Source: Leptothrix sp. (in: b-proteobacteria) (lineage in GTDB: Bacteria; Pseudomonadota; Gammaproteobacteria; Burkholderiales; Burkholderiaceae_C). From it: DNA of 64,000 bases. The stretch is from the NCBI GenBank assembly GCA_013822685.1, contig PNKV01000001.1, forward strand, positions 310,001 to 374,000. The letters run 5' to 3'. The notes beneath the pieces were generated by a model. It searched no databases. It was not told the DNA's origin and saw only the letters and a list, made by a program, of their open reading frames with translations. How positions within the stretch are numbered: position 1 is the stretch's first letter; every line of letters starts with the position of its first letter. This document shows, piece after piece, positions 25,969-52,124 of the stretch. A program made the position numbers and the translations under genes.

Positions 25969-26037
25969 GCTCATCCTTGAAATGGCGACGGGCACATCAT
26001 GGCACGCACAAATGACTGGTGCAGCGCGCCAGGTGTC

Positions 26038-26064
26038 TAAAGTATTTGGGCAAATGGCCGAATA
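26038..26064 (+). promoter_or_regulatory. Sigma-28 (FliA)-like promoter of the twin-GGDEF gene
   Basis: TAAA (26038-26041), exactly 15 bases, then GCCGAATA (26057-26064). This agrees with the FliA consensus TAAA-N15-GCCGATAA at 10 of 12 positions. Transcription would start about 17-20 bases before the ATG at 26088. Confidence 0.6.
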
Positions 26065-26087
26065 GTCGGTGTAGCGAAAGTGTCTTG

Positions 26088-28607
26088 ATGGATCAAACAG
26101 CGGCCAATCAATCTACGCGCCAGTTCAGAAAAAACAGCACGAAGATTGCGGCGCAATGGCGTCATGGCTTCTCAGGGCTTCGTTTCGCCAAAACGCTGGA
26201 GCGCCAGTTCCAGGCGGAATCAGCGCCAGTGCGCAACCAGCATCTGCTCGTTTGCAGTCTCATCGGCTTGGTCGCCGGCCCCTGGGGAGCGGCGCCCACT
26301 GAAGCATTGATGCTGCCCGATCTGGTCGGGCAACTCTGGCCCCAACGTCTCGCTTTCACCGCGCTGGCTCTTTTTCTATTGGCCGTCATCCGCCTGACGC
26401 CGTCCGCTTTCCGCAGCCCTTGGCTGCCCGAGCTGGCGATCTCTTTCGTCATCGTGCTGATGTGCAGCGGGATCATCATCCCCAACACCAGCCGCAGCGT
26501 CACGCTGACCGCGGCCGTTCACTCGGCCGATCTGATCGCGGCCACCATGTTCGTCGGCACGCTGGTCAGGCTTCGATTCTGGTATTCGCTGGGGGTGTCC
26601 TTGGTCAACCTCTTGGCCTTTGCAACGCTGATCCCACATCGATCGATTGAGCAGGGCTTGATCTTGTCCAGCAACTTCAATGTGCTGTTGGTGGCGGGCT
26701 TGTTGGTGCAGGTTTCAAGCTACCTGTTCGAATACCGGGACCGCCAACGGTGGCTGCTGGCCAAACAGAACGATGCCCACGCCAGTGAGCTGAACGAAGC
26801 CAACAGGCGGTTGCGTGACATGTCGCTGAGAGATGGCTTGACGGGGCTCCTCAATCGGCGGGGCTTCGAGGAAGCGCTTTCAACTGCGCAACAAGACGCT
26901 TCCACCCAGTCTTCTGTGCTGTCCCTGCTGGTGCTGGATGTGGACCACTTCAAGCGCTTCAATGACTTCTATGGCCATCCCCAGGGTGACCGTTGCCTGC
27001 AGCAGGTCAGCGCCATCCTGGAAGCCGCGGCACGGGAGCATGGAGGGCAGGCCGCCCGCATTGGTGGTGAAGAGTTTGCGGTCGTGCTGCCATCCAGCAG
27101 CACACAGCAGGCGCAAGCCCTGGCCTCGGCCATCAAGACTGCGCTGGATGCCGCCGCCATCGAGCACCAGGCTTCAGAGGTGGCACGGCATGTCACGGTG
27201 AGCATTGGCATGGCGCAGGGCCCTGCTTCCATCACTGGCGCCCGCTTGGTGGCTGCGGCAGATGCCGCGTTGTATGAGGCCAAACGCAGCGGGCGGAATC
27301 GGGCTGCCGTGGGCGAGGTTCTTGGCGAAGCATCTGGCTTGAAGATGGAAGTTCGGCAGACCTTTGGTTCCCAATCGCCTGGCTACGTGCCCTACACCGT
27401 CGAGGACGACTCCGCGGCCTTGTCGGCCATTTTGGCCAATGGGGTTCGGTGGCTTCGATTCCCAGCCAACGTTGAACAGCACTATCAATCCATCAGAAGC
27501 AGCCGCCACCAATGGCGTCTTCCAGCTTGCATCCTGCTATCGGTACTGGGCTTCAATGTCTTCGCCTTCCTCTACGAGCAAGGCGCGCCAAACGCCACGG
27601 CCTGGATGCAGAAGAACCTGGTTGCCTTCAACATGACGGGATTGGCTTTGAGCTTGTTGCTGATGGCAAGGGGCTGGGTAAGGTGGAAGGAGGCTTTGGT
27701 GGCCGGCGCCTTCTCTGCCCTGGCCTTGGTGGGGGCGCATGCGTTATCGCTGGACCATTCGCTGGTGGCGTACCCCACTTTCATGGTGCTGATCCTGATC
27801 CCCATGGCCAGTTGCATCCTCGCCCAGCAATCGCCTTTTCATGTCTTCCCATCGTGGGCGGCTGTGGTCATTGGCTACCTTGGCTTCACCTCCGCAGAAT
27901 CTGGTTCGATCGAAGTCATCGTCCGCAATGACATCGCGCGCATCCTGATCGTGGGTGGCATGTTCATCCTCCTGGCCAGCTACACGCTGGCACGTGCTGA
28001 AAGGCGGGCCTATCTGCTGAACGGCATCCAGCGCGGCCAACGCGCGGCTTTGTTAGAAAGACAAAAGGACCTGGAATCCCTGGTGAGCCTGGACGCCCTC
28101 ACGGGCTTGCACAACAGAAGGCACTTTGACCAAGCGCTCCAAGCGCTCTGGGACTCCGCCGAACGTGGTGGCACGGCGGTTTCCCTGTTGATCCTGGACA
28201 TCGACTTTTTCAAGCGCTACAACGACAGCCTGGGGCACCAGGCCGGCGATGCGGCCTTGCAGAAGGTGGCCACGGCGCTCAGGCAGGTGGCCGCGGGCAG
28301 CGAGGGTTGCCTGGCCGCCAGGCTTGGTGGTGAAGAGTTCGCGCTGTTGGTCGGGTGTGGCGAGGAAGCCGCCCTGAAGCTTGGAGAAGCTGTTTGCACC
28401 CAAGTGCGCCAATGCGCGATCGATCATCCCGACTCGGACGCGGCGGGCATCCTGACGGTGAGCGTGGGGGTGGCGACGATGATGCCCAGCACGCTTTTTA
28501 AGCCGTATGACTTGATGGGCATGGCTGATCGGTCGCTGTATCAGGCCAAGGCGGCAGGCCGGAACGGCATGGCGGTGGCTTGCACCAGCACGCTTGAGCT
28601 TCACTGA
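26088..28607 (+). CDS. Twin membrane-GGDEF diguanylate cyclase (paralogue 1)
   Basis: An 839-residue protein built of two repeats of [multi-pass membrane block + GGDEF]. Membrane block 1 is about 60-215 and GGDEF 1 about 235-400 (LTGLLNRRGFEEAL, GGEEF near 324). Membrane block 2 is about 475-645 and GGDEF 2 about 660-830 (LTGLHNRRHFDQAL, GGEEF near 744). Neither domain has an RxxD inhibitory site before GGEEF. Both active motifs are intact, so two cyclase domains in one chain could dimerise internally to make c-di-GMP. The layout matches the pair at 39036 and 41438. The ATG at 26088 is preferred over an upstream in-frame start because a sigma-28-like promoter ends just before it. Confidence 0.88.
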   Translation: MDQTAANQSTRQFRKNSTKIAAQWRHGFSGLRFAKTLERQFQAESAPVRNQHLLVCSLIGLVAGPWGAAPTEALMLPDLVGQLWPQRLAFTALALFLLAVIRLTPSAFRSPWLPELAISFVIVLMCSGIIIPNTSRSVTLTAAVHSADLIAATMFVGTLVRLRFWYSLGVSLVNLLAFATLIPHRSIEQGLILSSNFNVLLVAGLLVQVSSYLFEYRDRQRWLLAKQNDAHASELNEANRRLRDMSLRDGLTGLLNRRGFEEALSTAQQDASTQSSVLSLLVLDVDHFKRFNDFYGHPQGDRCLQQVSAILEAAAREHGGQAARIGGEEFAVVLPSSSTQQAQALASAIKTALDAAAIEHQASEVARHVTVSIGMAQGPASITGARLVAAADAALYEAKRSGRNRAAVGEVLGEASGLKMEVRQTFGSQSPGYVPYTVEDDSAALSAILANGVRWLRFPANVEQHYQSIRSSRHQWRLPACILLSVLGFNVFAFLYEQGAPNATAWMQKNLVAFNMTGLALSLLLMARGWVRWKEALVAGAFSALALVGAHALSLDHSLVAYPTFMVLILIPMASCILAQQSPFHVFPSWAAVVIGYLGFTSAESGSIEVIVRNDIARILIVGGMFILLASYTLARAERRAYLLNGIQRGQRAALLERQKDLESLVSLDALTGLHNRRHFDQALQALWDSAERGGTAVSLLILDIDFFKRYNDSLGHQAGDAALQKVATALRQVAAGSEGCLAARLGGEEFALLVGCGEEAALKLGEAVCTQVRQCAIDHPDSDAAGILTVSVGVATMMPSTLFKPYDLMGMADRSLYQAKAAGRNGMAVACTSTLELH

Positions 28608-32286: not shown

Positions 32287-33444
32287 TCAATGCGTACCCG
32301 AGGACGGGATGACGATGGGCTTGATGCACTCGTCAAGCTTGCTGGAGAAGATGTGATAACCCTCACCGATCTCTTCCAGCGGGAACCTGTGCGTGATGAT
32401 GTCCTTGGGGTTGATGTGCCCCGCCTGGATGTGCTCAATGCAGCGGCCCACGTTGCGCTTGACGCTGGCCTGGTTCATCCGCAGCGTGATGCCCTTGTTC
32501 ATCGCCGAGCCGATCGAGACGGCGTTCAGCACCGGGCCGTAGGCGCCCACAACGGAGACCACGCCCCCCTTGCGCACCGAGTTGATGGCCCAGTGCAGGG
32601 CCACCGCCGATCCGCCTTGCAGCTTGAAGGGCCGGATGCCCGTGGCACGGTGCATGGCGCTGCCGCGCGCCTCGCAGCCCACGGCGTCGATGGCCGCGTC
32701 CCACCCCAGCCAGTCGCTTTCCTTCTTGAGGTACCAGACGGGGTCACGCACGTCGCGGAAGTTGAGGGTCTCGCAATGGGCGAACTTGCGGGCAAACTCG
32801 AGCCGGTAGTCGTACTCGTCGACCACCAGCACGCGGCCCGCGCCCATGAACCAGGCCGACTTGGCGGCAAACAGGCCCACGGGGCCGGCGCCGAACACCA
32901 CCACCGAGTCGCCGCGCTTGATCTGCGCCATCTCGGCGCCCTGGTATCCCGTGGGGAACACGTCGGTGCACAACGCGGCGTTGTCGTCGTCCACGTCATC
33001 GGGGATCTTCACTGGGCCCGCATCGGCGAAGGGCACGCGCACGTACTCGGCCTGGCCGCCGTCGTAGCCGCCGGTGGTGTGCGAATAGCCGTAGATGCCA
33101 CCCACCGCCGTCGCGTTTGGATTGGTGTTGTGGCAATTGCTGAAGAGCTCCTTCTTGCAGAAATAACATTCCCCGCAGAAGACGTTGAAAGGCACCAGGA
33201 CGCGGTCTCCGGCCTTCAATGTGTGCACATCCGCGCCAACGTCTTCCACCACCCCGACGAACTCGTGGCCGAAGGTCTGCCCAACCCGCGTATCCGGGAT
33301 AAGCCCGTGGTAGAGGTGCAGATCGGACCCACAAATGCAGGCCCGGGTGACGCGGACGATGGCATCACGCGGATGCTCGATCTCGGGCATCGGCTTGTCG
33401 ATCACTCGGACGCGGTAGGGACCGCGGTAGGTCATTGCGTGCAT
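32287..33444 (-). CDS. Zinc-dependent alcohol dehydrogenase (formaldehyde-dehydrogenase-like MDR)
   Basis: A 385-residue medium-chain dehydrogenase oxidising an alcohol or a thiol-aldehyde adduct with NAD(P). The catalytic zinc ligands are Cys in ACICGSDLHLYHG and His in GHEFVG; the structural zinc loop is CGECYFCKKELFSNC. The Rossmann motif is VVFGAGPVGLFAA. The length and the long loop after the structural zinc fit the glutathione-independent formaldehyde dehydrogenase-like branch, but the substrate cannot be named. AAGGAG precedes the ATG. It is followed by a small tail-anchored protein gene. Confidence 0.9.
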   Translation of the reverse strand: MHAMTYRGPYRVRVIDKPMPEIEHPRDAIVRVTRACICGSDLHLYHGLIPDTRVGQTFGHEFVGVVEDVGADVHTLKAGDRVLVPFNVFCGECYFCKKELFSNCHNTNPNATAVGGIYGYSHTTGGYDGGQAEYVRVPFADAGPVKIPDDVDDDNAALCTDVFPTGYQGAEMAQIKRGDSVVVFGAGPVGLFAAKSAWFMGAGRVLVVDEYDYRLEFARKFAHCETLNFRDVRDPVWYLKKESDWLGWDAAIDAVGCEARGSAMHRATGIRPFKLQGGSAVALHWAINSVRKGGVVSVVGAYGPVLNAVSIGSAMNKGITLRMNQASVKRNVGRCIEHIQAGHINPKDIITHRFPLEEIGEGYHIFSSKLDECIKPIVIPSSGTH

Positions 33445-33575: not shown

Positions 33576-34610
33576 TCATTGCTGGCATTGCGACTGCCTT
33601 AGCCGCCCAGCGCTTGGCGCAAAACCAAACCACCGCTTGTAAGCCTGAGAAAAGCTGGACAAATCGCTGAAGCCCATCCGCTCGGCGATCTGGGTCAGCG
33701 ACAGCGTGTCATCGGCCAGCAACTCGTTGGCCTGGCGGCCCCGCACCTCGGCCAGCAGCACCCTGTACGACACGCCCTCATCCTGAAGCCGCCGCTTCAA
33801 GGTTCGGTCGCTGAGGCCCAGCGTGCGCGCGGCCTGCAGCAGGTCCGGGGCAGTGTTGAGCGGCACGGAATCAAGGTACTGGCGCACGCATTCGGCCGCA
33901 CCCAAGCGGGCGCGGCGGCGCTCCATCAATTCCTCACAGGCTCTTTCGCACATGGCCACGGTGACCGGATTGGCTTGAGGCAGCCGCAGGCTCAGGAGCT
34001 TGCTGTCGAATGACAAGCTGTTGCTGGCGGCCCCAAACTCAGGGCGGACACCGCCCATGCGCGGATGGTTGGCAAGCACGGCCGCACCAGGCTGCAAGAC
34101 GTGCTTGAGCGTGAACCGAGACAAGGTGAACTCCGCGCCCAGCGTCTCTTTCATCAGCCGCGAAGCCGCCGCCACATCGCGCTCAACCAGGAAGCGCTGG
34201 ATGACGGGCTCAACGTCCGGGGCGTCGAAAGTGACGGTGTACATCTCACCGTCCAGGCCGCCAGAAATCCGGCAGAAGGCAAACGTGAGGGGGATGAAAC
34301 GCAAGGCCAGCGCCAAGGCGTCGGCCGCTGTGGCGCTGCTGACCAGGCCTAGGCCCCACAAGCCGTATGAAGCGAAGTTGTAGCGCATGCCCACTTCCAG
34401 CCCCAACCCCGGCTGCTTGCACGCGCGGATGAGGTTGTGCACCACGCACAGTTCCTGGCTGGCATCGAGCTCAATGGCGGGGTCGGCCAGATCGGCTTCT
34501 TTCAGCCGGGAGCGGGCCAGGATTTTTGGGACATCCAGCCCTTGCTCTTGGCCAAATTCGACCAAAAGCCGAACGCTGGCGGCACTGCGCCTGAAATCCC
34601 AAAAGCTCAT
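33576..34610 (-). CDS. AraC family transcriptional regulator
   Basis: A 344-residue regulator. The N-terminal part is the arabinose-binding-like ligand domain of the OruR/ArgR type (LVEFGQEQGLDVPKILARSR), and the C-terminal double HTH (about 245-335) has LGLSDRTLKRRLQDEGVSYR and TLSLTQIAERMGFSDLSSFS. It is convergent in function with TetR on the other side of a shared upstream region: the AraC gene reads left and tetR reads right, with a copy of the 44-bp repeat between them. Such regulators often activate oxidative catabolic operons; the BVMO-esterase gene or the dehydrogenase are candidate targets. Confidence 0.88.
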   Translation of the reverse strand: MSFWDFRRSAASVRLLVEFGQEQGLDVPKILARSRLKEADLADPAIELDASQELCVVHNLIRACKQPGLGLEVGMRYNFASYGLWGLGLVSSATAADALALALRFIPLTFAFCRISGGLDGEMYTVTFDAPDVEPVIQRFLVERDVAAASRLMKETLGAEFTLSRFTLKHVLQPGAAVLANHPRMGGVRPEFGAASNSLSFDSKLLSLRLPQANPVTVAMCERACEELMERRRARLGAAECVRQYLDSVPLNTAPDLLQAARTLGLSDRTLKRRLQDEGVSYRVLLAEVRGRQANELLADDTLSLTQIAERMGFSDLSSFSQAYKRWFGFAPSAGRLRQSQCQQ

Positions 34611-34746: not shown

Positions 34747-35415
34747 ATGGACAAAAGCGGGATGGATGCGGAACGCCCAGAGCGCCTCCACCTGGGCCGC
34801 TCCGAGGAGCAAAGGATTGCATGGCGTCGACATCGGCTTGTCGATGCGGGTATCCGCATTGCGGGTACACGGGGTTGCGCCCAGCTTGGTGTCCGGAAGG
34901 TGTGTGCAGAGGCCGACCTCAGCCACAGGTACTTCTATGAATCATTCGGATGCACCGATGAATTGCTCCTTGCGGCGTACGAACAGCTTCAGGCAGATCT
35001 CATTGCCACCGTCATGCTCGCGATGGGAAGTCTGTCCGAGCAGTGCTCCACCAGGTTGAATCGTTCCGTTGGGGCATTCCTGGGTTTCTTCGAGCACAAC
35101 ACGCATGCAAGGTGGATTCCATTCTTTGACAGCGCCCTTCTGAAAGCATTGAGCAAGGATCCAAACTGGCGCTTGTTGTCGGCGTATGAGGCGATGTTGA
35201 CTGATGAACTCAGGCGAGGGGGTGTGGGCAACGATCAAGCCGCTCAAGCCACAGCCAGTGGCTTGTTGGGCGCCACCATTCAGCTGACGGTTCGATGGCT
35301 TGCCACCAGGCCGGGCGAGCCGATCGACGAAACGCTGGCCGCGCTGCAGTTCATCCACGGGGCGGCCATTCAGTCCTTGCAGGACAGCGGTGGCGCAGTT
35401 TGGCCCGAATCATAA
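34747..35415 (+). CDS. TetR family transcriptional regulator
   Basis: A 222-residue regulator (a GTG five codons earlier is in frame). The N-terminal HTH (about 25-70) is RHRLVDAGIRIAGTRGCAQL, then VRKVCAEADLSHRYFYESFG, which is the TetR pattern with Tyr-Phe-Tyr in the recognition helix. The ligand domain is helical with no recognisable specificity. It is flanked by two copies of a 44-bp repeat: one upstream of itself and one upstream of the BVMO-esterase gene. A simple reading is that it controls both promoters. Confidence 0.88.
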   Translation: MDKSGMDAERPERLHLGRSEEQRIAWRRHRLVDAGIRIAGTRGCAQLGVRKVCAEADLSHRYFYESFGCTDELLLAAYEQLQADLIATVMLAMGSLSEQCSTRLNRSVGAFLGFFEHNTHARWIPFFDSALLKALSKDPNWRLLSAYEAMLTDELRRGGVGNDQAAQATASGLLGATIQLTVRWLATRPGEPIDETLAALQFIHGAAIQSLQDSGGAVWPES

Positions 35416-35443: not shown

Positions 35444-35512
35444 GCGCGGTGCTATTGCGCATGATTGGCCCCCATGGCGGCGGCCTTTCGCCGCACTTGC
35501 AGGTTTCAGAAT

Positions 35513-37993
35513 ATGCAAAGCACCCGCTTGACCACAGACAACCCCCTCAACACGATCATCATCGGCTCCGGCTTCGCGGGGATCGGCATGGCGGTCGCAT
35601 TGAAGAAGGCTGGGCTTGGCGAATTCCTCATCCTTGAAAAGCGCAACGATGTGGGCGGCGTTTGGCGGGACAACACCTACCCGGGCGCGGCCTGTGATGT
35701 CCCCTCCCACCTGTACTCGTTTTCATTCGAGCCCAACCCGAACTGGTCGAGGGTGTTTGCGCCCCAAGCCGAGATCCACCAGTACCTGAAGCATTGCGCC
35801 GAGAAATACGGGCTGCTGCCATTCATCCGTTTCGGCTGTGAAGTGGCCCAAGCCGTCTACCACGAAGGGCTCGCGTTGTGGACCGTGACCTTGACCAGCG
35901 GCCAGATCCTGCAAGCCCGATTCCTTGTCACAGCCACAGGTCAGCTCAGCCGCCCGGTGTATCCCAAACTGAAAGGCATGGAAAGCTTTGAGGGGCACGT
36001 TTGCCACTCTGCCCATTGGGACCACGGCTACGACATGAAGGGTAAGCGCGTTGCGGTGATTGGCACGGGCGCTTCGGCCATCCAGTTCGTGCCTGCGATC
36101 TCGGATCGGGTGAACCAACTGACTGTTTTTCAACGCTCGGCCGCCTACATCCTGCCTCGTCCTGATGGCCCCTATGCGGGCTGGCGCAAGGCCTTGTTCA
36201 GGATGGCCCCTTGGACGATGAAGCTGCACCGGGCCCGCATCTATTCGCAGTACGAAGGCCGCGCTGTGGGTTTCACCCGCGTCAAGGCGCTGATGGACCT
36301 GGCCGTGGGCCTGCCTTTCAAGGCGTTGCTCCGTCGGCAAGTGGCCGACCCCGGTCTGCGTGCGCGGCTCACGCCCGACTACCCCATTGGCTGCAAGCGC
36401 ATCCTGCTGTCCAACGACTACCTGACCACGATGGCCAAGCCCAACGTGAAGGTGGTGACGGAAGGCATCCGACGCATCACGGCCGATGGCATCGAGACAG
36501 CGGACGGGCAGCACCACGCCGTGGATGCGATTGTCTACGGCACGGGGTTCGCGGCCACCGAGTTCCTCGCGCCAATGACCATCACCGGGCGGGACGGGTT
36601 GGATCTGAACGAAGCCTGGAGCAAGGGCGCGCAGGCCTATCTGGGCATGACGGTGCCGGGCTTCCCCAACTTCTTCATGCTCTATGGGCCCAACACCAAC
36701 TTGGGCCACAGCTCCATCATCTACATGCTCGAAAGCCAGATCGCCCACACCTTGAGGTGCATGAAGGCAGCGCACAAGGCGGGCGCCAACGCGATCGAGG
36801 TCGATGCGGCACGCTATGCCAGCTTCAATGGCACCGTGCAAAAACGATTGGCGGCCACGGTGTGGCAGGGTTGCAAAAGCTGGTACGTCGATGCCAACGG
36901 CCACAACAGCACGAACTGGCCTGGCTTCACCTTTGGGTACCGGTGGCTCACACGCTATTCCTCGCTCAACGCCTACAACTTCATCGAGCCGCATCGCGGC
37001 TCAGGCAATGTGATTCGGTTTGCTGAATCGAAGAGCGCGGTGGAATCACTCACTGCCAGCATCTTGAAGGCCCTGTTGCGCACCACATTCAAAGCCTTCA
37101 TTCGTCCGCCGTTCGGGGTGGGCGCGCAGCGCTTCATCGTGAGCGCCTTGTCTAACCTCATGCCCAGCCACCGGCATGTGCATGTTGCACGGCATGACAT
37201 CCATGGCGTCACCGCAGAAGTGATCTCGCCAAAACAAGCGCAAGTCCGGGGCGCCACCATCCTCTACTTGCATGGCGGAGGCTTTTGCACAGGCAGTGCC
37301 CGCACACACCGCAGTTTGACAACCCGCCTTGCCGCCACCGGCATGACGGTCTGGGTGCCTGAATACCGCCTCGCGCCCGAGCACCCACAGCCCGCCGCTG
37401 TCGAGGACGCACTGACCTGCTATCGCGCCTTGCTCAAGCAAGGCCTTGCACCTCACCAGATCGTGGTTGGCGGGGATTCTGCCGGTGGCGGCTTGGCCCT
37501 CGCGCTGGCCCTGAAACTGCGCGATGCGGGAGAGCCCATGCCCGCAGGGTTGATGCTGCTGTCGCCCTTCCTGGACAACACCCTGTCAGGGAAGACCATC
37601 CGCTCGGCTTCGGAGCTTGATCCGATGCTCAATGTGGCATGGCTGAAGCAGGCTGTGGATTGGTATGCGCCGGGCTCTAAAAATCCACACTTGTTGAGCG
37701 CCGATTTGCATGGGCTGCCTCCCATGCTGATTCAAGTGGGCGACCTGGAAATCCTCGAATCCGATGCAAGCAGGCTGAATGCCCGCGCCGCGCACTATGG
37801 CGTGCCTTGCCGCCTGGAAATCTATTCAGGCCGTTGGCATGTGTTTCAGCTTCAGGCGGCCTTCCTGGCCTCTTCAGCCAACGCGGTGACGCGCCTGGCC
37901 ACCTTCGCCAGCCAGAGAACGCAGGCCCAAACGCCTCACTTTGCCTGGCATGAGAGTGCAGGCGACCCGATCTCCAGGGCCATGGCGTTTTGA
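35513..37993 (+). CDS. Baeyer-Villiger monooxygenase fused to HSL-type esterase
   Basis: An 826-residue two-enzyme chain. Residues 1-about 510 are a type I flavin monooxygenase: FAD loop GSGFAG (18-23), BVMO fingerprint FEGHVCHSAHWD (159-170; FxGxxxHxxxWD) and NADPH loop VIGTGASA (182-189). Residues about 535-805 are an alpha/beta hydrolase of the hormone-sensitive-lipase family: HGGGF (587-591), nucleophile GDSAGGG (Ser656), acid Asp744 and His776. Known chemistry suggests oxidation of a ketone to an ester or lactone and immediate hydrolysis by the same protein. The frame is continuous through the join, so this is a true fusion. The ATG at 35513 was chosen because upstream in-frame residues lack similarity to the family. 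The substrate is unknown. Confidence 0.93.
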   Translation: MQSTRLTTDNPLNTIIIGSGFAGIGMAVALKKAGLGEFLILEKRNDVGGVWRDNTYPGAACDVPSHLYSFSFEPNPNWSRVFAPQAEIHQYLKHCAEKYGLLPFIRFGCEVAQAVYHEGLALWTVTLTSGQILQARFLVTATGQLSRPVYPKLKGMESFEGHVCHSAHWDHGYDMKGKRVAVIGTGASAIQFVPAISDRVNQLTVFQRSAAYILPRPDGPYAGWRKALFRMAPWTMKLHRARIYSQYEGRAVGFTRVKALMDLAVGLPFKALLRRQVADPGLRARLTPDYPIGCKRILLSNDYLTTMAKPNVKVVTEGIRRITADGIETADGQHHAVDAIVYGTGFAATEFLAPMTITGRDGLDLNEAWSKGAQAYLGMTVPGFPNFFMLYGPNTNLGHSSIIYMLESQIAHTLRCMKAAHKAGANAIEVDAARYASFNGTVQKRLAATVWQGCKSWYVDANGHNSTNWPGFTFGYRWLTRYSSLNAYNFIEPHRGSGNVIRFAESKSAVESLTASILKALLRTTFKAFIRPPFGVGAQRFIVSALSNLMPSHRHVHVARHDIHGVTAEVISPKQAQVRGATILYLHGGGFCTGSARTHRSLTTRLAATGMTVWVPEYRLAPEHPQPAAVEDALTCYRALLKQGLAPHQIVVGGDSAGGGLALALALKLRDAGEPMPAGLMLLSPFLDNTLSGKTIRSASELDPMLNVAWLKQAVDWYAPGSKNPHLLSADLHGLPPMLIQVGDLEILESDASRLNARAAHYGVPCRLEIYSGRWHVFQLQAAFLASSANAVTRLATFASQRTQAQTPHFAWHESAGDPISRAMAF

Positions 37994-38068: not shown

Positions 38069-38986
38069 GTGAAATCTCGCCGTTACCCTGACACCTCGCA
38101 TGTGCGCCTGCGGGAGATCAAGTCCACCTTCATGGCCGAAGGGGCCCTCTGTGGCGCCACGCTCTATGTGCCAGCGGACACCGCGCCCGATCAGGAACTG
38201 CCCACCATCCTCATGCTCGGCGGTTGGGGCAGCATTCAGCGGGCCATGACCTCATCGTTCACTCACAGCTTTGTCGAAGCAGGTTTCGCCGTGATGGAGT
38301 TCGACTATCCCGGATGGGGCGACAGTGGCGGCTTTCCCAGGCAGGGCATCGATCCATGGCGCCGCACACGGGTCGCAGATACCGCACTGGCGCACCTGAA
38401 ATCGCTGCCCATGGTGGCTGCCCACAAGATCACCCTGTGGGGCACGTCCTTCGGTGGTGGCCATGTGGTCGATCTGGCTTCTCAACATCCCGAACTGAAG
38501 GGCGCCATCATCCAGGTGCCCATGCTGGACGGCATGGCCGCCACGTTGGCCACGCCACCGCTGAGGCTCATCAAACTGGTGGCCCTAGGCGTGTGGGACT
38601 TGGTCAAACCTGGCGCACCGATCTACGTGCCGACACTGGGCCGCGAAGGCGAGTTCGCCACCATGGACCGCGACGGGGCCTGGGAGGCCATGGAAGTCGC
38701 GCTAGCTGCCTGGAAAGACCGCAGCTATGACAACCGCGTTGCCGCGAAGTCCGTGCTGACCATGCCGTTCTACCGCCCCTGGCTGCGCCTGAAGGACGTG
38801 AAGATTCCGATGCTCATGATCGGTGCGACGGGTGACACGGTCGCGCCATTTGTGGCAGACAAAGTCAAACGGGTCGGCAACCCGAATGTGCAGGTCATCC
38901 AGATCGACGCCAATCACTTCGACCCGTACTTCGATCCGCTGTTTCCAGAGGTCCTGGCCCCACAGCTGAAATTTCTTCGCCGATGA
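38069..38986 (+). CDS. Alpha/beta hydrolase
   Basis: A 305-residue hydrolase with a GTG start (an ATG at 38132 is an alternative). LMLGGWGSIQRAMTSSF is the oxyanion region, GTSFGGGHVVDLASQHPELK the nucleophile elbow (Ser in GTSFGG), with the acid at about 252 (GATGDTVAPF) and His at about 282 (DANHFDPYF). It has no signal peptide. It resembles the X-Pro-dipeptidyl-peptidase/DLH-like hydrolases with a lid. It follows the BVMO-esterase gene on the same strand and may act on a downstream ester or lactone; that is inferred from position only. Confidence 0.82.
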   Translation: MKSRRYPDTSHVRLREIKSTFMAEGALCGATLYVPADTAPDQELPTILMLGGWGSIQRAMTSSFTHSFVEAGFAVMEFDYPGWGDSGGFPRQGIDPWRRTRVADTALAHLKSLPMVAAHKITLWGTSFGGGHVVDLASQHPELKGAIIQVPMLDGMAATLATPPLRLIKLVALGVWDLVKPGAPIYVPTLGREGEFATMDRDGAWEAMEVALAAWKDRSYDNRVAAKSVLTMPFYRPWLRLKDVKIPMLMIGATGDTVAPFVADKVKRVGNPNVQVIQIDANHFDPYFDPLFPEVLAPQLKFLRR

Positions 38987-39035: not shown

Positions 39036-41441
39036 ATGCCGCAGTCCAGCCCTCTTGAAACGTTGCTTTACGGGCGCCACGCAGTACAGCGCGAAAGCAT
39101 CGAACGCCTGCTGCGCATCGTCACGCTCAACGTGGTCGGCTGCCTGCTGCTGTGGATTGGCGTTCTGGCAGGGTTCAACCAGGCGTGGGGCACCGGTGCA
39201 GTGACAGCCTACGGGACCTTGGGTGCGCTCGGGTTTTACGCAGCCTTGCGCAGTGGGTTCTCGCGTCGTTGGCCAGACCCATCGTTGGCCTATCCGCTCC
39301 TGTTGTTCAGTGCAAGCGCCGTCGCACTCTCGTATGCGTTGATTGACGAAGCGCGCGGTGCGGCACTCCAGTTGCTGTGCTTGTTGCTCGCCTTTGAGAT
39401 GGACCGCTTGCACTGGCGCAAATTGCTCAGGGTGTCGCTGTACAGCGTTGCTGCCCTTTCAGGCACCTCCTTGGTACGCTGGTTGGTCGAGCCACAAGCC
39501 GTGCAAGTGAGTGTCGAGGTCTATAACCTGCTCATGGCCGGGGTGCTGCTGCCCGTGGCGATCATCGTGGGGGCCGAGGTAAGGCGCGTCTACAAACGAC
39601 AGTTTCAGCAACACGAAGAGCTGGGCCGCACGCTGGCGCAACTCAATGAACTGTCTACCCGCGACACACTGACAGGTCTGCTCAATCGCAGACAGATGTT
39701 GGTGTTGCTGGAGCAGGAGCAAAAGCGGCAACGTCGAACCGGGCAGCCATTTCATGTGGCCATTCTGGACATCGACTGGTTCAAGCGGGTCAATGACCAA
39801 TACGGCCACAACGCAGGGGACGCCGTCTTGCAGAGCTTTTCCACATTGGCCAGCGCTGCTTTGGCCAAGACAAACGCCTTGGGGCGCTGGGGTGGCGAGG
39901 AATTCATGCTGCTGATGCCAGGGGCCGACGACGCTCAGGCCATCAACGCCTTGCTGCGGGTCCGCGAAGCCATTGCCGGCCATGACTGGGGCAGCATTGC
40001 GCCGGGGCTGCAAGTGGGATTTTCAGCCGGAGCCAGCCAGCATGTGATTTCTGATTCCGTGTCCAGCGTCCTGGAGAGGGCGGATCGCGCGCTCTACCGC
40101 GCCAAAGAAAATGGGCGCGGTCAGACGGTCATGGCCAGCGAGGTCGGGAGTGCAGAGAGTTCGGTGCCGGTCGGGCGAGCGGTGCAGCCAATTTCTGCCT
40201 TCGGCAGCGAGCCCTTCCCGCCAAATGCGGCCCCACGGAACACGGCCAAGGCGGCACCATCTGATCAAAGAGACGATGCTGTGCGGGCGCGGCAAGATGC
40301 CTTGCCGGGCGGCCTTTTGAAACGCCTGGGCGATCTCGTTTTCAGCCAACGCGCCGACATACGCGACCATCTGCGCATGCCGATGCTGGCCATGGCCTTG
40401 TACGTCATCTGGATTGCGATGTTCCATTGGTATGCCATTCCGTCCGGACAGATGGACGCGACCTTGGGCATGTGGCTGATCCGCGTGGACATGGTGGCCA
40501 TCGTGGCCTTCTATCCACTGATCCGCAGCGGCTGGTCTGCTCGCTACCAAGATGGCCAATTGGCGCTGCCACAAGTGCTGGTGGCCTATGGAACCTGCAT
40601 GATGGGCTATGCGGCAGCCCCAGCGCTCAGGGCATCGGTGCTGCATTTGATGTGCGTGATACAGGTCTTCGCGATGGTGAGCCTCTACCCGCGAAGCAGC
40701 CGAATCGCCGGTGCCGGGGCTGTGCTGAGCTTGCTGGTGACGCTGGCGGTGATGGCCTGGATCGCTCCACCAGATTTCAATGTGAAGCTTGAGGCCTTGA
40801 AAATCCTGATGACGTGCTTCGTCCTGGGTCGGCTGTCGATGCTGGCATACGACTACAGCCAAGTGCGCGAGAAAGTTGAATCAGAGAAGCGTGAATTGGG
40901 TCACGCGGTCGCGAAGGTTCAGGAGCTCGTGGTGCGTGATGCGCTCACAGGCTTGTTCAACCGCAAACATCTGCAGGATCTGCTGACGCAGGAACAGGAA
41001 CGCTCTGGCCACACCGGCCAAGAGTCGTGCGTGGCACTGATTGACCTGGATCATTTCAAGCAGGTCAATGACACCCTTGGACACCAAGTTGGCGATGAAG
41101 TCCTCCAAAGGTTTGCAAAGCTGGCGCAATCGACACTCCGGGAAAGCGACGTCATTGGCCGTTGGGGCGGGGAAGAATTTCTGGTGCTGATGTATGACAC
41201 TGCGCCTTCAGGCGCCGGCCTGATGGCATTGGAGCGATTGCGAAAATGCTTTGCTGACTGCACTTCCCCCAATGCCCCGAATCTGAAGGTGACTTTTTCT
41301 TGTGGCATTTCGCAAATCGACCCTGGTGAACCGATTGCACAGTTGCTCGAACGCGTGGACCGCGCGCTCTACAAGGCCAAGGCTGCGGGCCGAAACCAGT
41401 GCGTGATCGCGGAAGATCCGGTGCGCCGTGACCAGAGCTAG
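39036..41441 (+). CDS. Twin membrane-GGDEF diguanylate cyclase (paralogue 2)
   Basis: An 801-residue protein with the order membrane block 1 (about 25-185), GGDEF 1 (about 205-370; TLTGLLNRRQMLVLLEQEQK, GGEEF near 285), Ala/Pro-rich linker, membrane block 2 (about 445-610) and GGDEF 2 (about 625-790; GLFNRKHLQDLLTQEQERSG, GGEEF near 708). The second domain has the inhibitory site RESD before GGEEF and the first does not (AKTN), so only the C-terminal cyclase should be product-inhibited. Both catalytic motifs are intact. It converges with its paralogue: the two stop codons share the sequence CTAG. Confidence 0.9.
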   Translation: MPQSSPLETLLYGRHAVQRESIERLLRIVTLNVVGCLLLWIGVLAGFNQAWGTGAVTAYGTLGALGFYAALRSGFSRRWPDPSLAYPLLLFSASAVALSYALIDEARGAALQLLCLLLAFEMDRLHWRKLLRVSLYSVAALSGTSLVRWLVEPQAVQVSVEVYNLLMAGVLLPVAIIVGAEVRRVYKRQFQQHEELGRTLAQLNELSTRDTLTGLLNRRQMLVLLEQEQKRQRRTGQPFHVAILDIDWFKRVNDQYGHNAGDAVLQSFSTLASAALAKTNALGRWGGEEFMLLMPGADDAQAINALLRVREAIAGHDWGSIAPGLQVGFSAGASQHVISDSVSSVLERADRALYRAKENGRGQTVMASEVGSAESSVPVGRAVQPISAFGSEPFPPNAAPRNTAKAAPSDQRDDAVRARQDALPGGLLKRLGDLVFSQRADIRDHLRMPMLAMALYVIWIAMFHWYAIPSGQMDATLGMWLIRVDMVAIVAFYPLIRSGWSARYQDGQLALPQVLVAYGTCMMGYAAAPALRASVLHLMCVIQVFAMVSLYPRSSRIAGAGAVLSLLVTLAVMAWIAPPDFNVKLEALKILMTCFVLGRLSMLAYDYSQVREKVESEKRELGHAVAKVQELVVRDALTGLFNRKHLQDLLTQEQERSGHTGQESCVALIDLDHFKQVNDTLGHQVGDEVLQRFAKLAQSTLRESDVIGRWGGEEFLVLMYDTAPSGAGLMALERLRKCFADCTSPNAPNLKVTFSCGISQIDPGEPIAQLLERVDRALYKAKAAGRNQCVIAEDPVRRDQS

Positions 41442-43774
41442 ATTTCGGCGATGCATTGATTGCGCCCAGCCTTTTTGGCGGCGTACAGCGCGCGATCAGC
41501 GCGCTCCAATGTGTCTGCCCAGGTCTCTCCAACGCGATGGTGAGTCAGACCCGCAGAGAAGGTGACGCGCAGTTCTGGGGCTTGACTCGAAAGCTTGGCC
41601 TGGGCAACCACCGCCAGCAGACGGTCAATGGCCATCTGAGACCCACCTGGCATGACGATCAGGAATTCTTCACCACCCCACCGGCCAACGGTGTCTATGT
41701 CTCGGAAGGCCGTTTTTGCCAGGGCGGCAAACCCCACCAGCACCTCATCACCAACCTGATGTCCATGGATGTCATTGACCTGCTTGAAATGATCCAGGTC
41801 AATCAAGGCAACGCACAAGCCAGGCGAGCCGATGCCACCGCGCATGGTTTCATGATCAAGGACTTCATGCAAATGCTGTCGGTTGTACAGGCCTGTCAAG
41901 GTGTCGATGGTCGTGAGGCGTTCGACTTCGGCGATGGCCAATTCAAGTTCTTTGCGTTCTTGGTGGTTCTTCTCGCGGGAGCGGGCGTAGTTGTATGACT
42001 GCCAGGTGAGCATCAGCAAGACACCGCAAGCTGTCGCCATGCTCAAGCCCTCTGATGCAGCATCGAACCCTGGCCCGCCCCACAAGCTCATCCCGATCCA
42101 GGAGATCACCAGCATCACGATCACGGCTGTCCCCGAATAGCGCGCTTGTCGTGGCGAAAACGAAGGAAACCCGAATGCCTGTACCTGGCAAAGCACGCCC
42201 AACAGCGCGCCCTTGCCGATTGGTGAAAAGAAGTGCGCCGCCACCAGCATCAAGTTGGCCCAGATGCATTGCTCCATCATGCAGATGGGATCTTTGAAGC
42301 GCTTGGACCAACCGCTTCGGATGATCACCAACGGTGCAATGGCCCCGATCGTCAGATGGCCCAACAAAACAAGTTCCAACCAACGGGGAAACATGTGCTT
42401 TGGGATTGCATAGAAGATGACGACGAGCAGCCAGAAAACATACATGCCGGAGACGGCAGATGCCAGCTTCAGGAAAGTGCGCGTCTTGGGATCGTCGGTC
42501 CACAACAGCTTGGACAGCGAACTTGAAGTGGCATGGATTGCCCTCCGCTCTGGCGGGGCAGCAGCCGGTGTCAGCACAGGAAGCGGTCCTCTTGCTGACA
42601 ACGAGGCTTGCGCCATTTCGCGCGAGGCCGCATGGCTTTCGCCATTGACAAACTCAGGGCTGATTCGGTCTCTGCCTGCATGCTTGGCGTCGTACAAGGC
42701 CTGATCGGCCAGCTCCATCAGAGCGTCGATGGAGCCATCTCGGTAGGTTGCCAGGCCCGCCGAAAACGTGACGCGCAGGCCAGGGTGCACGGAGTTCCAT
42801 TCATGCTGGTCAATGGCCGCTCGTAGATCCTGCAAGCGGAGATAGGCCGAACGCCCATCGACCTCCGGCATCAGCACGACAAACTCCTCCCCACCCCAGC
42901 GGGCCACTGTTTCGAGTGGCTCGAACACCGATGAAGCGATCTCGGAAAAGCGTTTGAGGACGGCGTCGCCCACGGCATGGCCGTGCTGATCATTCACACG
43001 TTTGAAGAAGTCGATGTCCAGCATCCCCACCGTGAATGGCACACCAAAGCGTGCCGTTTTGCGGGCCTCCTGCTCCAGGCAGGCCAGCATGTGCCGACGG
43101 TTGTATAGCCCCGTCAAGGTGTCATGGACGGACAGGAATTGAAGGGTTTGAAGCGCTTTTTCCCGCTCCACGTTTTGCTGCTTGCGGCGCTTCACCAAGG
43201 TACGCGCGTGGGTCGAAACCATGGCCAGCGTCGGAAGCAGCAATGCCAGGCAGCCGAGGTTCAACAACTCATCGATCAGCTTGGGCCCGTTCGGGTGTGC
43301 CACCCAAATGCTGATGGAGTTGGCAAGCTGGAGCACAGTGGCCGCTGCGATCACGAACCTCACTTGCTTCACAGGCAGGCGACGCATGTCGTAGACCACG
43401 ATCACGGCCAGCCACATGAAAGCCACCCCTCGGCTGATTTCAATCAGGCGATAAGACAGTGCGACAACCATCACGCTGAACAACACCTGTGGAAGGACCA
43501 CCAATGGATCTCGCCACCGAAGTGTGAGCCCAGACCAGATCAATCCCCCGAAGGTACCGAGGCCACCTGCAATGACCACCGCAATCAAATGCGCTCGCTC
43601 TATGGGGAACAGGTTGAGCCAAGCGCCGGTATAAAGCACCAGCAGCGCCAGCACGTAGCTTGGCAGCGTCAGAACAAACCGGCGCGTCGCCTGGCCGTGC
43701 ACTGTTGACGAAGCAGCTTGAACGCCGCTTTCGTCAAGCTCCGGGCGGAGAGTGGCGGGAGAGGCTGTCAACAC
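41438..43774 (-). CDS. Twin membrane-GGDEF diguanylate cyclase (paralogue 3)
   Basis: A 778-residue protein with a GTG start. Layout as paralogue 2: membrane block 1 (about 30-185), GGDEF 1 (about 215-375; LTGLYNRRHMLACLEQEARK, GGEEF near 293), linker, membrane block 2 (about 430-590) and GGDEF 2 (about 610-770; LTGLYNRQHLHEVLD, GGEEF near 698). Again only the second GGDEF has an RxxD inhibitory site (RDID); the first has EPLE. The similar architecture and linker and the convergent neighbour suggest an inverted duplication, since diverged. Confidence 0.9.
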   Translation of the reverse strand: MLTASPATLRPELDESGVQAASSTVHGQATRRFVLTLPSYVLALLVLYTGAWLNLFPIERAHLIAVVIAGGLGTFGGLIWSGLTLRWRDPLVVLPQVLFSVMVVALSYRLIEISRGVAFMWLAVIVVYDMRRLPVKQVRFVIAAATVLQLANSISIWVAHPNGPKLIDELLNLGCLALLLPTLAMVSTHARTLVKRRKQQNVEREKALQTLQFLSVHDTLTGLYNRRHMLACLEQEARKTARFGVPFTVGMLDIDFFKRVNDQHGHAVGDAVLKRFSEIASSVFEPLETVARWGGEEFVVLMPEVDGRSAYLRLQDLRAAIDQHEWNSVHPGLRVTFSAGLATYRDGSIDALMELADQALYDAKHAGRDRISPEFVNGESHAASREMAQASLSARGPLPVLTPAAAPPERRAIHATSSSLSKLLWTDDPKTRTFLKLASAVSGMYVFWLLVVIFYAIPKHMFPRWLELVLLGHLTIGAIAPLVIIRSGWSKRFKDPICMMEQCIWANLMLVAAHFFSPIGKGALLGVLCQVQAFGFPSFSPRQARYSGTAVIVMLVISWIGMSLWGGPGFDAASEGLSMATACGVLLMLTWQSYNYARSREKNHQERKELELAIAEVERLTTIDTLTGLYNRQHLHEVLDHETMRGGIGSPGLCVALIDLDHFKQVNDIHGHQVGDEVLVGFAALAKTAFRDIDTVGRWGGEEFLIVMPGGSQMAIDRLLAVVAQAKLSSQAPELRVTFSAGLTHHRVGETWADTLERADRALYAAKKAGRNQCIAEI

Positions 43775-46153: not shown

Positions 46154-46267
46154 TTGCCTGCCGGGGCGCCCCACCCGGACTTTTAGCCATGTGCAACCTG
46201 CCTTGCGGGGTGTTGCCCTTGCTCGTCCGTTTTTTTTCAAACAATCCTGGCCATGAGGGCACAAGAG

Positions 46268-47176
46268 ATGACACCGTTCAATTCCATCTTGGTCGCCACC
46301 GACCTGTCATCCATCAATGCCAGCCAGGTCGAGCACCGCGCGGCGCTGCTGGCGCAAGAACAACACCGCGCGCGATGGCAATGCGACACAGAAGACCTGG
46401 CCTCGATGACGCTGATGCACGCCTTGCCCAGCTCTCCGCTGGACGAGCTTCGCCGATGGTTTTCCAGCGAGGCTGACAAATGCCAATGCCTGGAAGGCCT
46501 GGCCATTGAACTGAACCAACGCCACGGCGTGGACGTGCGAACGCACATGACGACCGGAGATCCCGTAGAGGAGGTCACCCGGCATGCCGACGATCTCGAC
46601 GCAAGCCTGGTCGTGACCGGACGCCGTGGTGTCGGATTCTTAAGTGGGGCAATGGTTGGATCAACCGCGGAACGCATTGCCAAGCGATCGCCCCGACCAG
46701 TGCTGATGGTGCGTCAGCGGGCTCACAAGCCCTATCAACGCACGCTGGTACCCGTGGACTTTTCCCAGTGGAGCCTCCACGCCATTGACTTGGCAAGGCG
46801 GATCGCACCTCAGGCCTCGCTGGTGCTCATGCACGCTGTCGAAGTGCCTTTCGAAGGCCGAATGCGCTTGGCCGGCGTGACCGAGGACGCGCTGGTGCGT
46901 TACCGGGAGGCCGCGCGGCGCACGGCGCAGCGCCGTCTGCAAGAACTTGCAGCCGATTCAGGATTGGACCAAGGCCTGGTGACCTTGTGCACGCCCAGCG
47001 GTGCGTCTCCCTGGATGCTCATCGTCCAGGAGGCACAGAAACAGAACTGCGACCTCGTGGTGATGGGTCGACAAGGCCGGCATGCCATCGATGAGTTCCT
47101 GCTGGGCAGCACGACGCGCATGGTCATCGCCGAAGGCTTGACCGACGTGCTGATCTCCAGCAGCCAGTCCGGCTGA
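46268..47176 (+). CDS. Tandem universal stress protein (UspA family)
   Basis: A 302-residue protein with two Usp domains. Domain 1 (1-about 150) begins FNSILVATDLS and has the nucleotide motif G-x2-G-x9-GS (GRRGVGFLSGAMVGS). Domain 2 (about 155-300) begins RTLVPVDFSQWS and has a second copy (GRQGRHAIDEFLLGS). Both motifs are intact, so both should bind ATP. A start five codons earlier is in frame but the ATG at 46268 gives the usual N-terminus. It lies 52 bases before mrpA on the same strand, a possible stress-linked pairing. Confidence 0.92.
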   Translation: MTPFNSILVATDLSSINASQVEHRAALLAQEQHRARWQCDTEDLASMTLMHALPSSPLDELRRWFSSEADKCQCLEGLAIELNQRHGVDVRTHMTTGDPVEEVTRHADDLDASLVVTGRRGVGFLSGAMVGSTAERIAKRSPRPVLMVRQRAHKPYQRTLVPVDFSQWSLHAIDLARRIAPQASLVLMHAVEVPFEGRMRLAGVTEDALVRYREAARRTAQRRLQELAADSGLDQGLVTLCTPSGASPWMLIVQEAQKQNCDLVVMGRQGRHAIDEFLLGSTTRMVIAEGLTDVLISSSQSG

Positions 47177-47227
47177 TGACCCCGCGCATGAGATTCGCTG
47201 CAGCATTCGAAAGTAGACTGTCCAGCA

Positions 47228-50149: not shown

Positions 50150-50481
50150 TCTCTATCGCCATTGGCGTGATGGCCAGCGCTGGCGTGTGGCTGGTCCTGC
50201 GGCCGCGGACATTTCAAGTGCTGATCGGCCTGTCGATGCTGTCTTATGCGGTCAACCTGTTCATCTTCAGTGTGGGCAGCCTGGCCATTGACCGTGAGCC
50301 CATTGTCAAGCCCGGACTGGTGGCCAACCTGGCCAACTACAGCGATCCGCTGCCGCAATCGCTGGTGTTAACAGCCATCGTCATCGGCTTCGCGACGACG
50401 GCACTGTTCCTGGTGGTGCTGCTGGCATTGCGTGGGCTGTCCGGTGGTGACCATGTCGACGGACAAGAGGAGCACCCATGA
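50137..50481 (+). CDS. mrpC: Mrp antiporter subunit C
   Basis: A 114-residue NuoK-like membrane protein with three hydrophobic helices (about 3-25, 30-50, 72-95). TFQVLIGLSMLSYAVNLFIF and DPLPQSLVLTAIVIGFATTA are the MrpC signatures. The ATG at 50137 lies within the last codons of mrpA; the gene ends in ATGA overlap with mrpD. Confidence 0.93.
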   Translation: MEIVISIAIGVMASAGVWLVLRPRTFQVLIGLSMLSYAVNLFIFSVGSLAIDREPIVKPGLVANLANYSDPLPQSLVLTAIVIGFATTALFLVVLLALRGLSGGDHVDGQEEHP

Positions 50482-52124
50482 TGGGCGCGCCCGAGCATCT
50501 GCTGGTGGCGCCCGTGCTGCTGCCGCTGGCCACGGCGGCGGTGATGCTGCTGCTGGGCGATAACCGGCAACGCCTGAGGGCAGGCATCAGCGTCCTGTCG
50601 ACGGCCTTTGGGCTGGCCATCGCCGTGAGCCTCTTGCTCGGCCTGGCCCACCGCGAGGCGCCCGCAGCCTTCGGCATCTACCTGCCCGGCAACTGGCCCG
50701 TGCCTTTCGGCATCGTGCTTGTAGCCGACCGGCTGTCGGCGCTGATGGTGGTGCTGACGGGCTGCGTTGGACTGGCCTCGCTGCTGTACGCGCTGGCGCG
50801 CTGGCAACACGCCGGCGTGTATTTCCATGTGCTGTTCCAGCTGCAGCTGATGGGGTTGTATGGCGCGTTCCTGACGGCCGACCTGTTCAACCTTTTCGTC
50901 TTCTTCGAGGTGCTGCTGGCGGCAAGCTACGGTTTGCTGCTGCACGGCGGGGGCGAGGCACGGGTGCGCGCCGGTCTGCACTACATCGCCATCAATCTGG
51001 TTGCCTCGCTGCTGTTCCTGGTGGGCGTGGCTGTTTTGTATGGGGTCACCGGCACCTTGAACATCGCCGACATCGCGCAAAAGCTGCCGGCCGTGCCGGT
51101 CAGCGACCGGGGGTTGCTGCACGCGGGGGCGGCCATCCTGGCCATTGCCTTTCTGGCCAAGGCCGGTCTGTGGCCGCTGAACTTCTGGCTGCCACCGGCC
51201 TATGCCGCAGCCAGCGCTCCGGCCGCGGCGATGTTCGCCATCCTGACCAAGGTCGGCGTGTACGCCGTGCTGCGGTTGTGGACCTTGTGCTTTCCTGCCG
51301 ATGCAGGCGCCTCGGCGGGCTTCGGCGGCGATGTGTTGGTGTGGGGCGGCATCGCCACCCTGGTCTACGGGTCGGTGGGCATGTTGGCCTCGCAACGGCT
51401 GGCAAGGCTGGCGGGCCATGCCGTGATCGCGTCCTCGGGCACGCTGATCGCCGCGATCGGATTCGACGCGCCGGCGCTGAGCGGCGGCGCGCTGTTCTAC
51501 CTGGCCAGTTCTACCCTGGCCGGCTGTGCGCTGTTTCTGCTGGTGGAACTGCTGGAGCGGTCACGCGAGGTCGAAGTGGGCCCTCAGCAACTCGACGATG
51601 GCAACGATGCCCTGCCGGCCTTCCTGGACGCCGAAGCGCACGCCAGCACCAACCTCGACGATGACGAGAAGGCGCTGATCGGCCGCGCAATCCCCGCGGC
51701 ACTGGCCTTCCTGGGCGTAGCCTTCACCGTTTGCGCGTTGGTGACGTCGGGTCTGCCGCCACTGTCTGGCTTCGTCGCCAAGCTGGCCATGCTCACGGCG
51801 CTGCTCGATCAACCCACACCGGCCGCCTGGACGCTGTTCGCGCTGTTGATCCTGTCAGGCTTGTTCGGTGCCATCGCCTTGATGCGGGTGGGCATGCGCC
51901 ATTTCTGGACGGCCAACGACCGCCCCGCGCCGCGCCTGCGCGTGATCGAGACACTGCCCATTGCGGGCCTGCTGGCTGCTTCGGTGGCGTTGGTGCTGCA
52001 GGCCGAAGCCGTGCTTGGGTACACCCGCACCGCGGCCAATTCTCTGCACGCACCGCGGCTGTACATCGATGCGGTGATGGGTGCCCGGCCCAAGGTGCCG
52101 CACGGCACGGAGGCCACGCCATGA
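50478..52124 (+). CDS. mrpD: Mrp antiporter subunit D
   Basis: A 548-residue NuoM/N-like antiporter subunit with about 14 membrane helices. The conserved Glu lies in FVFFEVLLAASYGLL and the Lys in LAKAGLWPLNFWLPPAYA, both needed in proton-translocating homologues. The acidic insertion LDDGNDALPAFLDAEAHAST followed by NLDDDEKA (about 373-398) is cytoplasmic or periplasmic and larger than usual. Starts and stops overlap the neighbours (ATGA at both ends). Confidence 0.93.
   Translation: MMGAPEHLLVAPVLLPLATAAVMLLLGDNRQRLRAGISVLSTAFGLAIAVSLLLGLAHREAPAAFGIYLPGNWPVPFGIVLVADRLSALMVVLTGCVGLASLLYALARWQHAGVYFHVLFQLQLMGLYGAFLTADLFNLFVFFEVLLAASYGLLLHGGGEARVRAGLHYIAINLVASLLFLVGVAVLYGVTGTLNIADIAQKLPAVPVSDRGLLHAGAAILAIAFLAKAGLWPLNFWLPPAYAAASAPAAAMFAILTKVGVYAVLRLWTLCFPADAGASAGFGGDVLVWGGIATLVYGSVGMLASQRLARLAGHAVIASSGTLIAAIGFDAPALSGGALFYLASSTLAGCALFLLVELLERSREVEVGPQQLDDGNDALPAFLDAEAHASTNLDDDEKALIGRAIPAALAFLGVAFTVCALVTSGLPPLSGFVAKLAMLTALLDQPTPAAWTLFALLILSGLFGAIALMRVGMRHFWTANDRPAPRLRVIETLPIAGLLAASVALVLQAEAVLGYTRTAANSLHAPRLYIDAVMGARPKVPHGTEATP

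Follow-up and report, generated by a model that had tools for sequence, protein, structure and literature searches.

A Baeyer-Villiger monooxygenase joined to an HSL/family IV esterase in one open frame: a probable bifunctional enzyme of ketone catabolism

The window analysed in this study, a 64,000-nt stretch of bacterial DNA, carries a gene (35513..37993, plus strand) in which a type I Baeyer-Villiger monooxygenase (BVMO), a short linker and an esterase of the hormone-sensitive lipase (HSL)/family IV type form one fused chain in a single open frame. The product is probably a bifunctional catabolic enzyme that converts a ketone into an ester and then into acid and alcohol; judging from its sequence and from its relatives, we put the probability of this reading at roughly 0.7.

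Domain organization and conserved residues

The coding sequence starts with ATG, its stop codon ends at 37993, and its 826 residues are uninterrupted; mechanically, the frame stays open further 5′ to a TTG at 35465, corresponding to 842 aa. All features of the fusion described below are on the plus strand. Pfam searches of the protein gave FMO-like (residues 15-216), Pyr_redox_3 (15-209) and Abhydrolase_3 (583-779), the last (PF07859) at 168 bits compared with a cut-off of 25. Pfam and solved-structure matches delimited a BVMO part of approximately residues 1-490 (35513..36982) and an HSL/family IV esterase part of approximately residues 514-805 (37052..37927). Solved BVMOs aligned from about residue 11, with E values of 3.6e-71 for steroid monooxygenase 4ap3 and 3.8e-70 for CHMO 5m0z, and solved HSL esterases aligned over about residues 539-802, with a best E value of 4.3e-50. 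The end of the BVMO part was set near residue 490, within a few codons of which many standalone relatives terminate; the end of the fast-evolving linker (approximately residues 491-513; 36983..37051) was placed by eye from the start of a standalone HSL. The C-terminal tail (37928..37990) ends in AGDPISRAMAF, and a similar end was seen in one congeneric protein lacking the esterase (see below). The best NCBIfam match, NF058651, a GESAG-motif HSL subfamily, scored 229.5 bits, which is below its curated cut-off of 430; the motif here is GDSAG.

Motif scanning located the long type I BVMO fingerprint, for which the pattern FxGxxxHxxxW[P/D] is printed in PMC9836352, at residues 159-170 (FEGHVCHSAHWD; 35987..36022). 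The second fingerprint, [A/G]GxWxxxx[F/Y]P[G/M]xxxD, was present at residues 48-62 (GGVWRDNTYPGAACD; 35654..35698). Two Rossmann motifs of the form GxGxx[G/A] flank the fingerprints, namely GSGFAG for FAD (residues 18-23; 35564..35581), found by motif scan, and GTGASA for NADPH (residues 184-189; 36062..36079), read from the translated sequence. Lys295-Arg296 (36395..36400) presumably represents the active-site Arg region of BVMOs. Four motifs of bacterial HSL/family IV esterases were found in the C-terminal part: the oxyanion motif HGGG at residues 587-590 (37271..37282), GxSxG as GDSAG at 654 with Ser656 as the nucleophile (37472..37486), (E/D)xL at 746, and HxF at 776, where His776 of the triad (37838..37840) lies within WHVF at 775. 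The fingerprint at 159-170, Ser656 and His776 had been placed at these positions in the first-pass annotation, which also named FAD and NADPH loops and HGGG, and the motif scan bore these positions out.

Conservation was assessed in an alignment of 32 fused proteins, picked for being fused and including that of the window. Residues H165, W169, R296, H587, S656, E746 and H776 were each conserved in 32/32, as were G588 and G589 of HGGG; G48, W51, P57 and D62 of the second fingerprint and the columns of GTGASA were also invariant, while F159, G161 and D170 occurred in 30, 31 and 27 of the 32, respectively. The architecture is common to all the aligned proteins, in agreement with the unbroken passage from BVMO into hydrolase claimed at first pass.

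The catalytic acid of the esterase had been assigned to Asp744. This residue is Asp in 22 of the 32 proteins (Glu in 7, and Gly, Ser and Ala in one each), whereas position 746, which belongs to the (E/D)xL motif, holds Glu in every one of them (37748..37750). In EstD11, the best solved match, Thr, Ala and Glu are aligned to positions 744, 745 and 746, the Glu being that of its ExL motif; the (E/D)xL rule, together with a modelled Glu in a GDSAG relative, is given in PMC10385968. On these grounds Glu746 is likely the catalytic acid, forming the triad Ser656-Glu746-His776, and Asp744 was rejected as probably wrong. The joining of a BVMO to an HSL-type esterase, with the main catalytic positions conserved, was otherwise supported.

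Compared with the window, seven fused congeners gave dN/dS values of 0.06-0.15 for the BVMO part, 0.12-0.21 for the HSL part and 0.26-0.76 for residues 491-530. Both halves, with values well below 1, are under purifying selection.

There is next to no chance that the fusion is a sequencing or assembly artefact, and this explanation was rejected because the open frame is conserved across the fused relatives, being the same in nine further Aquabacterium genomes and in 23 proteins outside the genus. Nothing in favour of an artefact was found for the window. One relative, from Sphingomonas aquatilis (L120:5905-8468), has the two halves in different frames, compared with one frame in S. zeae (L116), and the difference is due to either a frame break or a sequencing error.

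Neighbouring genes

An AraC-type regulator gene (Arabinose_bd and HTH_18 by Pfam; 33576..34610, minus strand) lies upstream of the fusion and is divergent from it. Between the two is a TetR-like regulator gene (34747..35412, plus strand), with a TetR_N score of 23.4 bits, just under the Pfam cut-off of 24. The further alpha/beta hydrolase reported to follow the fusion is indeed present 75 bp downstream (38069..38986, plus strand) and is Hydrolase_4/Peptidase_S15-like by Pfam. The sole alcohol dehydrogenase-family gene among the neighbours scanned (32287-33444) is on the strand opposite to the fusion.

This arrangement was compared over 22 Aquabacterium loci, comprising 9 fused loci (window included) and 13 without the HSL part. 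The AraC gene adjoins the BVMO gene in 21 of them, with a gap of 79-159 bp in 19, 903 bp in the window and 1733 bp in one other; in 19 of the 21 other loci the gap is too small for the TetR-like gene of the window. A hydrolase like 38069-38986 was found in 9/9 fused and 10/13 esterase-less loci, one of the misses being at a contig end. Among the best 80 loci of the GTDB scan, relatives of this hydrolase were detected at 72-83% in L111, L115 and L119, none of which is fused, and at 33% in L099.

Outside the genus, the fusion has aldehyde dehydrogenase and GMC oxidoreductase genes as neighbours in Paraburkholderia (L096), Sphingomonas (L116) and Burkholderia glumae, and an SDR gene stands behind the split pair in both such loci scanned (L140 and L134). 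These operon partners, from the few relatives scanned, fit a two-step route.

Elsewhere in the window, three genes (26019-28607, 39036-41441 and 41438-43774) encode long proteins each having two GGEEF-type motifs, as if containing two GGDEF domains; the latter two genes adjoin each other convergently on the downstream side of the fusion locus, and some of the GGDEF-like halves cross-match. Another FMO-like flavin monooxygenase is encoded at 53266-54753 on the minus strand, and the region 46253-52124 holds a universal stress protein gene followed by genes for Mrp-type cation/proton antiporter subunits A and D (47228-52124).

Distribution and evolutionary history

We took the genus of the window, by inference, as Aquabacterium and searched 42 genomes of the genus. 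Matches at E 1e-180 or better were obtained in 27, of which 10 are fused and 17 contain the BVMO only, as called from the end of the best match (residues 488-505, no HSL part). Two fusion-bearing genomes (G001 and G003) each hold a second, BVMO-only copy. An internal stop is present in 2 of the 17 BVMO-only best matches, and one of the 17 (G024) is placed in the tree apart from the fused clade. Fused genes were found in 2 of 369 genomes in a class sample (threshold 1e-100) and in 2 of 399 in an order sample (threshold 1e-180), with the window's own genome counted in each and two candidates scored per genome, such that both counts may be too low; one more genome of the order sample has separate adjacent genes. 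Overall, the fusion looks uncommon.

The fusion is present in several genera and is not unique to the window. In the GTDB scan, 19 of the best 80 loci were fused, from Burkholderia, Paraburkholderia, Ralstonia, Rhodoferax, Paracidovorax, Curvibacter, Ideonella, Massilia, Limnobacter and Hydrocarboniphaga, among others, as well as Sphingomonas zeae and two Pseudomonas. Of 1586 matching plasmid records, 89 cover at least 80% of the query in one place, adjacent separate genes included. No viral carriers were found in one scan sensitive to close relatives only. Two long-frame matches, G521 (L176) and G284 (L084), turned out to be separate adjacent BVMO and HSL genes and were discarded as fusions.

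A BVMO tree was constructed from 114 rows (7 of 121 were left out), comprising 32 fused, 40 with a separate HSL, 40 without and 2 undecided; a separate HSL was defined as one within 2.5 kb downstream, and "without" as none in the flanking DNA examined. The 40 separate HSL genes are on the same strand as the BVMO, and for 35 the distance to the BVMO match is no more than 205 bases. In Pseudomonas and Alcanivorax, many relatives carry BVMO and HSL as adjacent genes; in most loci of these two genera, as well as in Sapientia, the longest BVMO and HSL frames share a few to some tens of bases, although the HSL starts in split loci were set mechanically and the real overlaps may be smaller. A 50-row clade (SH-aLRT 98) contains all 32 fused rows together with 14 esterase-less, 3 split and 1 undecided. 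When rooted on L167/L171, the fused clade includes 13 maximal non-fused subtrees, or 6 with forks below 95 collapsed, both counts taking in the 3 split rows and the undecided row. In the HSL tree (72 rows), the 32 fused domains and 3 split ones form one clade (100/96); the nearest branch outside it is L003, a long-branched paralog from the same genome as the window, followed by separate Pseudomonas genes.

The simplest reading of these trees is that adjacent genes became fused and that the esterase half was then lost repeatedly in Aquabacterium. Alternatively, a split ancestor may have given rise to fusions several times, or regain through recombination may have occurred. Repeated loss is probable, and in one lineage a trace of it may persist: the esterase-less L040 protein ends in AGDPLARAIA, compared with AGDPIARAMA at the fused C-terminus of a congener, a tail score equalled by 1 of 2000 shuffles. 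This supports interpretation of the L040 tail as the scar of an internal esterase deletion in that lineage only; the other 7 of 8 tails tested, from the 13 esterase-less Aquabacterium loci, did not resemble the fused C-terminus. Relocation of the esterase in esterase-less congeners was considered and rejected, as no standalone HSL of the genus with more than 45% identity to the fused HSL part was present among the matches listed, with at most 16 candidates scored per Aquabacterium genome.

Two further loci are worth recording. A split pair on a Planctomycetaceae-labelled contig (L123) is placed inside the mostly proteobacterial fused clade, owing to either transfer or a mis-binned contig. The genome of the window also has a separate BVMO-HSL pair (G000:C1:259510-264243; L002, L056 and L184) downstream of an FA_desaturase-family ORF, the motifs of which we take to be AlkB-like; this ORF (L184) had no match in NCBIfam, and an alkane context, considered for the pair, was not adopted.

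Proposed function and comparison with known systems

In the proposed mechanism, the N-terminal BVMO, using FAD and NADPH, would insert oxygen beside the carbonyl of a ketone to form an ester or lactone, and the C-terminal HSL esterase would hydrolyse this product to acid and alcohol by means of Ser656-Glu746-His776. The AraC-type neighbour would probably turn the fusion on in response to the ketone or its precursor alcohol. The gene most likely arose by merging of two adjacent genes; the fused chain would fix the two activities at a 1:1 ratio and may shorten the transit of the ester. The reactions, substrate class, regulation, order of events and any channelling are what we infer; the two-step reading draws on the chemistry of the two families, on relatives in which both genes are neighbours, and on a reversed fusion in Deinococcus.

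The first-pass annotation described a "two-step machine". Taken as obligate coupling, this was weakened, since close congeners keep the BVMO, the AraC gene and usually the next hydrolase without the HSL part. The 17 of 42 Aquabacterium genomes with no HSL part in the best match imply that the esterase is dispensable or replaceable there, and its absence in congeners where the BVMO is constrained counts against strict coupling; the 40 of 114 tree rows with no downstream HSL in the flanking DNA examined count against the two-step reading as well. The apparent repeated loss of the esterase half disfavours strict dependence on the fusion and suggests that coupling would be helpful and not essential. 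A stronger version, in which the protein is a self-contained ketone cleaver that passes the ester directly from the BVMO site to the tethered esterase and was selected for a forward pull on the oxidation or for retention of a reactive or volatile ester, is conceivable and can be offered only tentatively. If it holds, Aquabacterium would provide matched natural fused and esterase-less versions, with BVMO parts up to 89% identical (L017), for measuring what the fusion is worth.

Alternatively, the two halves could act on different steps, the BVMO product being cut by 38069-38986 or other esterases and the HSL part deacylating another compound of the pathway, so that the fusion would serve co-regulation and not a coupled reaction. 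The downstream hydrolase is retained whether or not the HSL part is present and could be the enzyme that actually hydrolyses the ester, and in four esterase-less loci the BVMO remains constrained (dN/dS of 0.10-0.14 compared with the window) where the HSL part is missing. However, across the best 80 GTDB loci the pairing of BVMO with HSL is far wider than the downstream hydrolase, and the same two families are joined in the reversed-order fusion; separate steps are rated as unlikely. A different objection concerns the BVMO itself. Its motifs cannot separate Baeyer-Villiger oxidation from S- or N-oxidation, family motifs do not assign a reaction, and no known substrate was found among the members examined. 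The BVMO half might thus mainly oxygenate S, N or aldehyde substrates, or the ester might be the end product and the esterase a side activity, but the recurrence of the pairing with an esterase as split and as fused genes, along with the long BVMO fingerprint, makes this very improbable. Sequential ketone oxidation and ester hydrolysis by one chain is the reading preferred here.

BVMO-esterase pairs are already known, and separate proteins acting, or proposed to act, in this order are described in PMC12753306, PMC6304351 and PMC9836352. The open-access literature searched yielded BVMO-hydrolase gene clusters and no named natural BVMO-esterase fusion. An earlier description is possible, since PMC4498894 mentions a domain-architecture supplement. 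The fusion architecture is already in public records under a generic name. Cascades of BVMO and esterase have been proposed for breakdown of alkanes and plastic-derived ketones and are of interest in biocatalysis. The natural fusion, with its split, fused and apparently secondarily esterase-less relatives, makes the benefit of tethering directly measurable, and should acid and alcohol prove to be the products, the protein would be a ready one-gene ketone cleaver.

The sad cluster of Acinetobacter includes an alcohol dehydrogenase; in the window, where the BVMO and the esterase share one chain and a hydrolase gene comes next, none of the neighbours scanned is an alcohol dehydrogenase gene running in the same direction. 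As described in PMC12753306, the BVMO SadD makes an ester from a ketone and the esterases SadA/SadB hydrolyse it, and the genes are clustered. By this description the chemistry and clustering resemble those proposed for the window, and the difference is that SadD and SadA/SadB are separate proteins. The tree contains related BVMOs from Acinetobacter, and in two of these rows (L094 and L154) an HSL lies roughly 1 kb downstream. In the VirS-MymA-LipR locus of mycobacteria, VirS is an AraC-type, divergent regulator. In PMC10272862 this locus is described as having a gene for a transcription factor next to one for a monooxygenase, after which comes an esterase gene; the regulator-monooxygenase-esterase arrangement, compared by description, is similar to that of the window, whereas the proteins are separate and the proposed role is in the cell envelope. 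Adjacent BVMO and hydrolase genes in Sphingobium sp. AntQ-1 are co-induced and proposed to cleave a ketone (PMC9836352); unlike in the window, the genes are separate, the growth substrate is anthraquinone, and one of the two BVMOs is of type II.

The closest counterparts are themselves fusions. WP_257829991.1 and its kin, from Burkholderia glumae plasmids, have the same domain order and similar length, with 60.5% identity over 97% of the window protein, and the public annotation reads "alpha/beta hydrolase fold domain-containing protein"; these loci differ in having aldehyde dehydrogenase and GMC oxidoreductase genes upstream and no hydrolase gene next downstream. In Deinococcus radiodurans, the plasmid-encoded WP_010884002.1 (L095:4926-7427; 100% identical in the R1 plasmid record NC_000958.1) likewise has an HSL-type hydrolase and a type I BVMO fingerprint in one chain. 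It differs from the window protein in that the hydrolase comes first, with GESAG at 177, and the BVMO second, with the fingerprint at 510 ending in WP; identity to the window domains is approximately 31-32%. The reversed order would be explained most simply if these two families had been joined there independently.
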